In this document: positions 7,131 through 26,396 of the stretch, one piece after another
How the letters are laid out: every line of letters begins with the position of its first letter
How positions within the stretch are numbered: position 1 is the stretch's first letter
Assembly: GCF_024166365.1 (NCBI RefSeq)
Contig: NC_064839.1
Location: 16,664,878 to 16,728,877 of the forward strand
Direction of reading: 5' to 3'
Source of the DNA: Elephas maximus indicus
Taxonomy: Eukaryota; Chordata; Mammalia; Proboscidea; Elephantidae
DNA: 64,000 nt
The notes under the pieces: model-generated
Databases searched by the model: none
What the model saw: only the letters and a program-made list of their open reading frames with translations
Told to the model about the DNA's origin: nothing
Translations under genes and position numbers: made by a program

Positions 7131-7252
7131 CCTGCATGAAGAATCAGTGATTTTTATGAGTACGTGTCTCCGAGACCGAGGAGGAGAAGGTGCGAATGGA
7201 GGTGATGAACAGGACGGAGAGTGTGATCAAGGAGCTCCGGCCCAGTGTTGTC
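7131..7252 (+). pseudogene. TENT4B: TENT4B pseudoexon A (first exon present; start of catalytic region)
   Basis: The acceptor is tttttcttcag, ending at 7130; the donor is gtgagt at 7253. Three successive frames give LHEE, then SDFYEYVSPRP, then EEEKVRMEVMNRTESVIKEL, each like the segment just before the TENT4B catalytic core. The frame changes are explained by two single-A deletions, one near 7144 (GAAGAA-TC) and one near 7177 (ACC-GAG). Both splice sites still look usable, so the damage here is purely in the reading frame. The upstream exon 1, encoding the long Pro/Gly/Ala-rich N-terminus, is not visible in 1-7130. Confidence 0.88.
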
Positions 7253-7524
7253 GTGAGTACCTGCCTGGGAGCTGGCTGCTCAGTCACACTCTGTCCACGG
7301 GGTGGGAGAGGAGCCCCAACGTCTTGTTCAGAGTCTTCACATGCAGGTGGACGTGCATCTGGAGACTCACGGTTAGTTAACTTTCAAAGATGAACAGTTT
7401 TCTGCAGCCTTTGGAATTTGGGCTCTCTAATCATTTTCATTGACTCGAATAACAAACTTTTTTTTTTTGCAGTGCTAAAAAGCAACTCCTAAAAATGAAC
7501 TATACTGAGAAAATACAGAACGGA

Positions 7525-7965
7525 ATTTGAAATTCTCATGAACTCTGGACTTTCTGGAGCCACAAAGGGTGGATGAACCCTTGAAACTATTGCCCCGAAT
7601 TAATCTTTAAACCTTAAACCAAAAAGACCCCTGAAATCTTCTTGAAACTGAACAATAATATAGCTTAACTAGTAAAAAATGTCTGCCTTGAGTACTATGC
7701 TCTTTTAAGAATTATCTAAAACCAAAATCCATCTTTTTGGGATCAAATTGACAACAGCAACTCGAAAGATTAGATAGAAACCTTAGGGGGCAGTGAGTTT
7801 ATGTTGATGAGGGAGGAACAACTCAGAAGAGGAGGGTGGGAACGGTTGCACAACTTGAAGAATGTAATCAGTGTCACTAAATGGTACATGGAGAAACGTG
7901 AATTGCTGTGTGTTTTGCTGTGCATATTCTCCACAACAACAACAAAATAAATAAAATTTAGAAAA
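7525..7965 (+). repeat. L1 3' UTR with A-rich tail
   Basis: Matches in reverse complement the block at 51480-51700 (gtctgccttgagtactatgctc; ttaactagtaaaaaatgtc) and ends in acaacaaaataaataaa. In the intron between pseudoexons A and B. Confidence 0.7.
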
Positions 7966-8593
7966 AAAATAACTGTACTTAGGAATCATTAGTATTAAAG
8001 AAGGCAAATCAAACTTCGTTGTAGTAGTTCTTTTATGAGATGTGATATATCAAAACCTCATTACAGTTTTGTTCCAATCTGTTAGTCTAAACAAATATCG
8101 ATTTCTTATAGTGGAATGAAAATGCCAAGTGGGAATTTCCTTCATCCCGTGATGTTTATTTTCTTGGGTGAGTGCAGGCGTTAGTCTTTTCTGCCCCTGT
8201 CGTGAAACCACTGCTTCTCTCTCTCTGACCATTCCTTGTTGCCCAGTATAGCTCCCACCCGGTAAACAAAATGTCTGCCCCAAATTAACAACTCTTTGCT
8301 TATTTGTGGTCCTTGTTGTCGGTAGTAAGTTAATACTTCACTTTTCAGGGCTTCTTTGAGGGTATGTTCTAAAATTTAGTGCCTTCAGAGAAGTACTTAT
8401 TAGAATCCTTTACTTTACGTTATGTAGCATTTCTTTAGGCTCTGTCATGGGGTGGCGAAGCGAAGCCAGGAAGTGTTTTTGTCCATTTGGTAAAACAAAG
8501 AAGTTTTAAGTAAGGTATTATACGAGGGGAGGACACTAGTGTTTTATTGAGCAGCTACCATATGTCACATTGCCTCTCTTATGTGACCCAAGT

Positions 8594-8985
8594 CAGTGGC
8601 TCTCAACTGGCAGTGATTTTGCCACCCAGGGCACATTTGGCCCTGGTGGCACAGTGGTTAAGTGCTGTGTTGATGGTCCGAACCCGCCAGCCGCTCTGTG
8701 GCAGAAAAGGCCTGTTGATCTGCTGCTGTAAAGGTTTATAGCCTTGGAAACCCTGTGGGGCAGTTCTACTGTGTCCTGTAGGGTTGCTATGAGTCGGAAC
8801 TGACTTGACGACAGTGGGTTTGGTGTTTTGGTTTTTTTGGAGACTTTTTTGGTTGTCATGACTGGGGAGGTGCTCCTGGCATCTAGTGGATAAAGGCCAG
8901 GGATCCTGCTAAGCATGCACAGGGCAGCTGGCATAACGAAAAATTATCTGGCCCCAATGTCAGTAGTGCTGAAGTTGAGAAACCC
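8594..8985 (+). mobile_element. MER5A (hAT-Charlie) non-autonomous DNA transposon, split by a SINE
   Basis: Starts CAGTGGCTCTCAACTGGCAG and ends GTTGAGAAACCC, with the typical interior ggcatctagtggataaaggc. An AfroSINE interrupts it at about 8639-8838. Confidence 0.82.
8639..8838 (+). repeat. AfroSINE inside MER5A
   Basis: GGCCCTGGTGGCACAGTGGT to GAGTCGGAACTGACTTGACG, then a T-rich end. 5' end slightly truncated. Confidence 0.9.
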
Positions 8986-24724: not shown

Positions 24725-25316
24725 AATCATGTCAAGGTATATAAAGGCCTCAACTGTACTTGAAATAGATGCAAATGAGGTTTTTGCATGACTTCATGGC
24801 AGCTTTGTGCATCTCTGGGGATAACTGTCCTTTTTTCTATTTTGATATTCAGTACCTAGCTGCATTGACTTGATCAATCAGCTGTCAGTCATGGTCACTT
24901 AATTAGCATTAACTTTGACTTAAAAGGCTACAGAGATCATGTATTTTAAGTTTCTTAGCTGCCCAAGATTATTATGTAACCAGGAGTAATGAGAGGAAGA
25001 AGCCAGTTGATACAGGGCTCTGCCTAAGGCCGTCTCACCTCCCTGAGTCCAGTGGGGTCTATGGGCAAAGGCCTCTGAGCAGGAGAGATAAGTCAGTCAC
25101 TTCGGTTCTGACTTGACTTTCAGAAGCCACTTTATATATACAGCCTTAGTCATTTAGAAAAATAGCAATTAAAGTGACAGGGCTAACAAGAGACTGGTGT
25201 CAGAGAAAGCTCAAGGAGCCTCCAGCTGTGACGACCATGAGCTGATGGTGCACATTCATGCCCTAGCAGCACCTTCAGAAGGGCGGTTTATTGTGGGCAT
25301 ATTGTTTGATAGGTTC

Positions 25317-25884
25317 TGTCTTAGTCATCTAGTGCTGCTGTAACAGAAATACCACAAAAGGATAGCTTTAACAAAGAGAAATTTATTTTCTCGCAGTCTA
25401 GTAGGCTACAAGTTCAAATTCAGGGCATCAGCTTCAGGGGAAGGCTTTCTCTCCCTGTCAGCTCTGAAGGAAGGTCCTTCTCATCAATCTTCCCCTGGGC
25501 CTAGGAGCTTCTCTGCACAGGAACCTCAGGTCCAAAGGATAGACTCTGCTCCTGGTGCTGCTTTCTTGGTGGTATGAGGTCCACAACTCTCTGCTCACTC
25601 TCTTTCCTTTTATTTCTTTTAAGATAAAAGGTGATGCAGACCACACCCCAGGGAAACTCCCTTTACATCAGATCAGGGATGTGACCTAAGTAAGGGTGTT
25701 ACATCCTGTCCTAATCCTCTTTAACATAACCCAATCTTGCCTCATTAGCCACAGGCAGAGATTAGAGTTTACAACACATAGGAAAGTTACATCAATCATG
25801 AAATGGAGGACAACCACACAATACGGGGATTCATGGCCTAGCCAAGTCGACACATATTTTTTGTGGACACAACAATCCACAACA
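25317..25884 (-). repeat. Solo LTR, class III (MaLR-like), elephant family
   Basis: TGTCTTAGTCATCTAGTGCT to CCACAACA. Flanked by perfect 5-bp duplications GGTTC (25312-25316 and 25885-25889). Confidence 0.92.
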
Positions 25885-26211
25885 GGTTCCTTGAGAAAAG
25901 GTTCACATAATATAGTCTGTAAGAATGCGAGATAGTGGCTTATGTTTTCAAGATTACCATGAAAAAATAATGTGAAAGTGTTAAGCTCCAAGAGGGTGAA
26001 GCTCATTTATCCCAGAAGTTGTGTTTGCGTGTAACATCGTTGTGTGCCTGCTGGTAAATCAGTGCTCAGTACAGTAGCTTCCTGCCAGCATATTCCTAGT
26101 TCTGAAAATATAAAATAAAGTTCTGAAAGCATCCCCAAATTCAGCTCTTAGAACAGTACCTGGTTTCATCTGCTGCCCTGATGTCTTTTTGGCCACTTTC
26201 CTTTTTTGCAG

Positions 26212-26396
26212 CATGCATCAGCAAGGCTCTTTTGTTCTTCCAGCAAAGGCTTCCAAGGTACAACTCAAACAAGCCTTGGTTCCTTGATGACAAACAAACA
26301 GCATCAAGGCAAATCAAATAACCAGTATCTCCACAGCAAAAAGAGGAAACACCGGCGGGATGCCCCTCTCAGGCCTTTGCAAATAGTAGGCGTTGT
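26212..26396 (+). pseudogene. TENT4B: TENT4B pseudoexon K (last coding block, basic C-terminus)
   Basis: The acceptor cttttttgcag ends at 26211. It reads [38 protein letters not shown], then [14 protein letters not shown]. The basic KKRKH motif fits the nuclear-localisation-type end of TENT4B. A 2-bp deletion near 26380 takes the frame past the original stop, which is still visible as TAG at 26394-26396 in the ancestral frame. The intron before this block is enlarged by an L1 (22029-24724) and a solo LTR (25317-25884). Confidence 0.92.

Follow-up and report, generated by a model that had tools for sequence, protein, structure and literature searches.

A decayed, intron-bearing TENT4B copy in the elephant genome as a probable breakpoint duplication beside ADCY7

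The window, a stretch of 64,000 nucleotides of elephant DNA analysed as a whole, carries on its forward strand a dead copy of TENT4B, in which eleven exons (exons 2–12) lie colinear between positions 7131 and 26387 in a protein alignment. The query was human TENT4B, which proved to be 100% identical over 497 aa to a database TENT4B; the read-through of the dead copy is identical to it at 381 of 489 aligned residues (78%). Lesions were scored against the elephant's own intact TENT4B, with nine exons compared in full, while those of exons 7 and 10 come from the protein alignment and reading alone. The first-pass annotation had described ordered, intron-bearing and decayed TENT4B exons with at least ten disabling changes; both points were borne out, and we count at least 14 such changes, or 15 with the exon 7 acceptor.

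Exon 2 (7131–7253) has suffered two 1-bp deletions, and the donor of exon 3 (9980–10024) has changed from GT to AT. Exon 4 (11970–12093) is open, with an altered donor that retains its GT. The next exon (exon 5, 13187–13298) combines a 3-bp deletion, a Q to TAG change, a 1-bp deletion and the loss of its donor. Exon 6 (14789–15089) has a Q to TAA change and is interrupted by a SINE on the reverse strand (14844–15008, ends approximate), which is found in the dead copy only and which we take to be an AfroSINE-type element. Exon 7 (15848–16060) has seemingly lost its acceptor AG; exon 8 (18933–19061) keeps an open frame with only missense changes. Further downstream, there are indels of −4 and +2 in exon 9 (19181–19285), a further frameshift in exon 10 (19389–19577), a +5 insertion and a deletion that takes out the donor in exon 11 (21588–21770, end approximate), and a 2-bp deletion in exon 12 (26212–26387), which includes the stop region. 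The former 3'UTR and its flank (26388–32300, forward strand) also align to the intact copy. On the 5' side of the dead copy, neither TENT4B exon 1 nor HEATR3 was found in 107 kb.

The UniProt entry G3T4R7 from Loxodonta is apparently a conceptual protein of the same dead copy, with an exon 5 reading that skirts the site of the TAG stop found here, and it is unsuitable as elephant TENT4B. That the exon 6 SINE is common to Loxodonta does not follow from this entry; an uninterrupted exon would give an identical Loxodonta model. At gathering thresholds, Rfam returned only two tRNA-like matches, one of which overlaps a SINE match.

A search of the genome with the full protein recovered an intact-looking, multi-exon TENT4B at 5,468,143–5,523,628 on the reverse strand of C29, the contig that also holds the window. 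Nine of its exons are open and the same or nearly the same as in other mammals, and a match to exon 1 is present. A separate compact TENT4B copy lies on contig C37. TENT4B is thus retained in the elephant genome, and no telomerase-RNA or snoRNA story can rest on the dead locus. The loss of TENT4B from the lineage, which would make the dead copy a unitary pseudogene, had been the leading idea after a genome-wide scan with the PAP_assoc family returned four matches, including one TENT4A-like exon and none that was TENT4B-like; with the full-protein search having overturned it, we regard it as next to impossible. The short family model may miss genes, since the intact TENT4B is absent from that scan yet present in the full-protein search. 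A retrocopy (processed pseudogene) does not fit either, as the dead copy has introns.

We then compared the two loci at the DNA level. The copies are colinear through introns and both flanks, from −9,694 to 41,494 in window coordinates, amounting to 51 kb of the dead locus. The part of this segment inside the window spans 1–41494 on the forward strand, the block beginning about 9.7 kb before the window; its counterpart at the intact locus occupies C29:5,442,107–5,507,320. The block is broken up by later insertions, such as an RTE at about 16,160–17,706 and an L1 at about 22,030–24,720. On one side, homology stops within TENT4B intron 1, and the dead copy therefore has no exon 1 and, with it, no native promoter. 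On the other side, it stops short of the CpG island upstream of ADCY7, leaving a breakpoint-edge zone at 41495–42500 where homology to the read part of the intact locus ends. The intact locus was read except for the last 8 kb before its exon 1. The edges are placed to within 1–3 kb rather than to the base; transposons lie over the junctions.

Between the copies, noncoding sites show K of 0.196 (27,949 sites) and exons 0.129; introns reach 0.207, as against 0.154 in the former 3'UTR and flank, a lower value of the kind that constraint on the intact 3'UTR would produce. Ka/Ks is 0.45 (95% interval 0.30–0.70, 317 codons), where a pair made up of one neutral and one constrained copy should give 0.5, and the two stops in 442 codons are within neutral chance. 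The decay thus fits neutral evolution since birth, and the copy, which is truncated, was probably dead on arrival. Together with the disabled frame and with introns and flanks homologous to a living parent, these features place it among the duplicated (unprocessed) pseudogenes.

The neighbouring genes are divided between the two copies. First, all 15 HEATR3 matches (18 of 18 candidates scored) fall at C29:5.566–5.607 Mb on the reverse strand, about 42 kb 5' of exon 1 of the intact TENT4B, and HEATR3 is seen nowhere else. Second, 17 of the 45 ADCY7 matches, all at C29:16.7475–16.775 Mb on the forward strand, lie downstream of the dead copy and in the same orientation; other contigs account for the remaining 28, which are consistent with adenylyl cyclase paralogues. 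No ADCY7 match was seen next to the intact TENT4B among the 43 of 128 candidates scored, a coverage that leaves the single-copy state of ADCY7 unproven. Third, a CpG island at 42501–43700 (86 CpG within 43001–43500) lies directly outside the duplicated segment and, by its position, is a putative distal ADCY7 promoter; the earlier suggestion that it marks the ADCY7 side is thereby supported. The other flank of the dead copy holds a ZNF599-like gene and UBA2, a region that presumably corresponds to human 19q13.11. A short first-exon-like stretch had suggested CCDC97, TGFB1 and HNRNPUL1 as the genes upstream; none of the three matched, and the proposal was dropped.

This arrangement bears on two simple accounts of the dead copy. 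Were it a plain extra duplicate, copied elsewhere and dead while the ancestral locus was left unaffected, one would expect the intact gene to sit between HEATR3 and ADCY7, the very finding that the first-pass annotation had named as decisive for this account. Only the HEATR3 half of it was found: the intact-looking gene adjoins HEATR3, whereas ADCY7, among the candidates scored, adjoins the dead copy instead, at a distance that resembles what we take to be the human TENT4B–ADCY7 spacing. A plain extra duplicate therefore does not fit, unless ADCY7 too had been relocated or duplicated, and we consider it very unlikely. The converse, in which the dead copy represents the ancestral gene body and was replaced by a living gene that is a relocated copy, draws on the position of ADCY7 downstream of the dead copy; it is set against a living gene that has both HEATR3 and an exon 1 match, and against 107 kb before the dead copy with neither, and appears extremely unlikely. 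The earlier notion that the ancestral locus was lost after a takeover is accordingly left without support.

We therefore favor, as the probable explanation, a breakpoint duplication: the dead TENT4B would have arisen from a rearrangement that parted ADCY7 from HEATR3. The same DNA is present on opposite strands of one contig, 11.1 Mb apart (the dead exons being at C29:16.67–16.69 Mb on the forward strand), with HEATR3 beside one copy and ADCY7 beside the other. The starting state would be an ancestor with the order HEATR3–TENT4B–ADCY7, which we assume from the human order. Two staggered cuts, one in TENT4B intron 1 and the other past the 3' end of TENT4B but short of the CpG island on the ADCY7 side, would have been followed by a repair that duplicated the segment between them (some 40–50 kb), so that each new junction received it, the two in opposite orientation. 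An inversion of about 11 Mb is the probable form of the rearrangement, its other break falling beside the ZNF599-like gene. The copy left with HEATR3 would have retained exon 1 and become the living gene; the one left with ADCY7, having only exons 2–12, would have decayed neutrally thereafter. Thus, to the question of whether the dead copy is a duplicate or the original locus, the answer under a breakpoint duplication would be both, the ancestral locus having been split and the overlap duplicated.

The two copies, their orientation, the places where the flanking genes are found, the homology edges and the neutral-type decay are observed; we infer three elements of this scenario, namely the single event uniting duplication and rearrangement, the simple inversion and the date. 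Between the copies on C29 lie ORC6 (9.50 Mb, reverse strand) and CCNE1 (11.56 Mb, forward strand), whose order and strands agree with an inverted 16q–19q block predicted from what we take to be the human gene order. Against a simple inversion, which predicts that the DNA beyond the intact copy (C29 below 5.44 Mb) once adjoined ZNF599, the part read there (from 5.435 Mb up) contains repeats and no gene nameable by eye. Further, GRAMD1A, SCN1B and TRIM28, presumably 19q genes in human, sit on another contig, C15, which implies at least one more rearrangement in the same neighbourhood, or more than two breaks. The layout of copies, HEATR3, ADCY7 and homology edges is equally well explained by two steps, in which an inverted segmental duplication of exons 2–12 near ZNF599 is followed by NAHR between the inverted copies that flips the interval. 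Its mechanism has precedent in that inverted repeats are known mediators of inversions (PMC3961182, consulted in part). However, this path needs two events rather than one, and a duplicate that lands about 11 Mb off already inverted; we consider it unlikely.

Under the favored breakpoint duplication, a pseudogene that looked odd becomes a relic by which an old chromosome rearrangement can be dated. We tentatively suggest that one staggered-break event in an afrotherian ancestor, tens of millions of years ago, might have parted HEATR3–TENT4B from ADCY7 on an ancestral 16q/19q chromosome and copied about 40–50 kb; other afrotherians should then share the scar. A scar of this kind is a rare character that would hardly arise a second time, and its presence can be looked for in manatee, dugong, hyrax, aardvark and tenrec.

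The literature searched yielded no printed report of a TENT4B breakpoint duplication, and no relevant paper on TENT4B/PAPD5 with elephant, Loxodonta or Afrotheria, as a pseudogene or as a mammalian loss; the main text of PMC11014510, as far as it was available, names neither TENT4B nor PAPD5. As an event type, breakpoint duplication is already known. The general model summarized for mammals in PMC3283308 (excerpts) likewise puts segmental duplication at the breakpoints of evolutionary rearrangements, whereas the elephant offers a single case examined in detail, in which the flanking genes on either side have been located. Closest in detail, in the portions of PMC3355041 available, are the Drosophila mojavensis inversions 2q and 2h, which have inverted duplications at both breakpoints: as in the elephant, once single-copy DNA forms inverted duplicates at the two ends of the rearranged block. 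The CG1208 duplicate of 2q is without the gene's first exon and upstream DNA, like the dead TENT4B; in 2h, one copy is intact and the other carries deletions, similar to the elephant pair. The differences, on the same excerpts, are of scale, outcome and completeness. The fly duplications span 1–7 kb and are 1.4–4.4 My old by the authors' dating, compared with about 40–50 kb and about 20% divergence in the elephant, so that, if the one-step reading is true, the elephant overlap greatly exceeds those described in the flies, with both copies surviving. Both fly inversions yielded new genes, whereas the truncated elephant copy is dead, and their breakpoints are characterised on both sides, while in the elephant the outer partner is named at one end only, as the ZNF599/UBA2 region. 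Finally, the dead TENT4B resembles duplicated pseudogenes in its retained introns, exon order and flanks, its living parent elsewhere and its neutral-type decay; unlike an ordinary one, it occupies half of its parent's original address and retains the 3' neighbour.

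Exons 2–12 of TENT4B were matched one by one and in order on the + strand of the window at 7131–26,387, using as query the human protein, which agrees with a database TENT4B at 100% over 497 aa. This bears out the first-pass annotation, which had described a decayed, intron-bearing TENT4B with ordered exons. A frameshift-aware read-through of this dead copy matches the query at 381 of 489 aligned residues, and its exons carry frameshifts, two stop codons, splice-site losses and, in exon 6, an inserted SINE. These changes were verified by full-length comparison with the elephant's own intact gene in nine exons; in the remaining two, the damage was called from the protein alignment and reading only. 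Stretches reading as RTE-type and L1-like (window 16,160–17,706 and 22,030–24,720) lie in the dead-copy introns and are missing from the matching place in the intact copy.

Whether a living, multi-exon TENT4B persists elsewhere in the genome had been left undecided by the first-pass annotation; a search of the genome with the full protein (E up to 10; 35 of 35 candidates scored) recovered one. Ten of the 35 matches constitute an intact-looking gene, including exon 1, at C29:5,468,143–5,523,628 (−) on the same contig, while another ten belong to the dead copy. Exons 4 and 5 of the intact gene are 100% identical to Tamandua TENT4B across the matched residues and the remaining exons nearly so; exon 1 was matched by the search alone, and the matched stretch includes one TGA, which may lie in noncoding sequence. 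Nine further matches are on C2, where one exon reads as what we take to be TENT4A, and two are weak. The last four lie close together at C37:151,421,809–151,422,413 (+) and cover residues 454–583 at 73–84% identity; this compact TENT4B-like copy seems to lack introns and is probably a separate processed pseudogene.

The closest of 120 listed proteins to the read-through is G3T4R7_LOXAF from the African elephant (90% identity; the other 119 reach at most 75%). It differs at 31 of 480 aligned residues, of which, by our reading, 26 are frame choices of that model and five true substitutions. Judged by sequence, G3T4R7 looks like the conceptual protein of the same dead copy in Loxodonta, making it unsuitable as a stand-in for elephant TENT4B. 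UniProt names this Loxodonta entry polynucleotide adenylyltransferase.

The intact locus, read over C29:5,435,001–5,515,000, is in opposite orientation to the dead one and colinear with it, introns included, from 9694 nucleotides upstream of the window (window −9694, C29 5,507,320) to window 41,494 (C29 5,442,107). Counting later insertions, the homologous segment spans 51 kb at the dead locus versus 65 kb at the intact locus. Its edges, precise to ~1–3 kb, lie in intron 1, ~16 kb short of exon 1 (the last 8 kb of that gap being outside the read range), and shortly before a CpG island at 42.5 kb, itself upstream of ADCY7. On its 3' side, the intact copy has L1-, RTE- and retrovirus-like pieces inserted in the flank (C29:5,445,001–5,456,754).

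Divergence was estimated from 32 of 49 chained alignment pieces, the 17 dropped being nine short or repeat-like pieces and eight off-locus repeat matches. Between the two copies, noncoding K is 0.196 over 27,949 sites (0.177 without CpG), exon K is 0.129 over 1,237 sites, and K for the former 3'UTR and flank is 0.154. At ~0.098 per branch, an exon value of ~0.10 plus a small constrained share fits a copy neutral from birth. Across 317 codons in 12 indel-free blocks, with both stop codons excluded, Ka is 0.100, Ks 0.222 and Ka/Ks 0.45; the wide bootstrap interval of 0.30–0.70 would also allow brief constraint. Simulation from the protein differences (90 of 442 codons) gave 0.11–0.12 substitutions per site, with 4.6–5.2 stops expected against the 2 observed, and two or fewer in 12–16% of simulations. 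The SINE family in the dead copy is presumably AfroSINE, with 24 hits across the copy and its edges, 6 of them within aligned blocks. The two that were compared by alignment (near 8,630–8,824 and 10,664–10,820) occupy the identical position in both copies, and thus the duplication postdates the onset of that family's activity; the exon 6 SINE is found in the dead copy only and is 12% from a local consensus. At neutral rates of 1.3–1.6 × 10−9 per year, we estimate the duplication to be roughly 60–75 million years old; if this age holds, other paenungulates should therefore carry the scar.

Neighboring genes were sought in 100 kb fetched on either side of the window, which itself occupies C29:16,664,878–16,728,877. 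Of the suggested flanks, HEATR3 upstream and ADCY7 downstream, only the latter is in place: ADCY7 coding exons lie downstream on the + strand (window coordinate 82,650–110,072), whereas neither HEATR3 nor TENT4B exon 1 gave a match in the 107 kb before dead exon 2. All 15 HEATR3 matches are at C29:5.566–5.607 Mb (−), ~42 kb 5' of intact TENT4B exon 1. With 43 of 128 candidates scored in the genome search for ADCY7, 17 of 45 matches fall at C29:16.7475–16.775 Mb and none near intact TENT4B; the others are on different contigs, with identities consistent with adenylyl cyclase paralogues.

In human, HEATR3, TENT4B and ADCY7 are adjacent in 16q12.1, and flipping the block that separates the two elephant copies back by a single inversion restores this order. 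Human ORC6 is in 16q11.2, CCNE1 at 19q12, UBA2–ZNF599–GRAMD1A–SCN1B at 19q13.1 and TRIM28 at 19qter. In the elephant block, HEATR3 and ORC6 (C29:9.50 Mb), both 16q genes, are on the − strand, and CCNE1 (C29:11.56 Mb) and UBA2 (C29:16.49–16.53 Mb), both 19q genes, on the + strand, with CCNE1 located at the predicted place. This gene order fits the expectation for a block containing the old 16q/19q junction, and ancestral 16q/19q synteny is asserted in PMC2211313. A nearly full-length, apparently intronless UBA2 copy, probably a retrocopy, is found at C1:114,088,746–114,090,658 (−), with 78–90% identity and stops in some pieces.

Upstream of the window, a KRAB zinc-finger gene with a CpG island on its 5' side lies at C29:16,598,000–16,609,400 (−). 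Its top-scoring protein is unnamed, with only 48% identity; we call the gene ZNF599-like because the second scorer, a low-quality ZNF599 model (79% identity over 95%), is by far the closest among the 120 listed. Another CpG island at C29:16,651,900–16,652,600 (window −13 to −12.4 kb) holds a + strand first-exon-like stretch pointing towards the proposed breakpoint ~3 kb off; it may belong to another gene that the rearrangement interrupted. The elephant 19q block is itself split, with CCNE1, UBA2 and the ZNF599-like gene on C29 versus GRAMD1A, SCN1B and TRIM28 on C15. By the human order this split adjoins the dead copy, which suggests that the breakpoint was reused. A simple inversion would place below C29 5.44 Mb the 19q genes that are found on C15, which leaves two readings: the site was used again in a later rearrangement, or the event itself involved more than two breaks. 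Beyond the intact copy, C29:5.435–5.445 Mb holds 46 reading frames of at least 70 codons, none nameable by eye, and C29:5.445–5.457 Mb consists of repeats.

We propose that the inversion break had staggered ends, which would leave the same segment at both junctions and account for exon 1 lying only on the HEATR3 side and for the ADCY7-side copy being dead. Duplication followed by recombination, in two steps, would produce the same layout as such one-step breakage. Duplication at mammalian breakpoints is a recognized phenomenon (PMC3283308). For staggered breakage, inversion 2q of Drosophila mojavensis offers a close parallel, its duplicated gene lacking the first exon and upstream DNA (PMC3355041).
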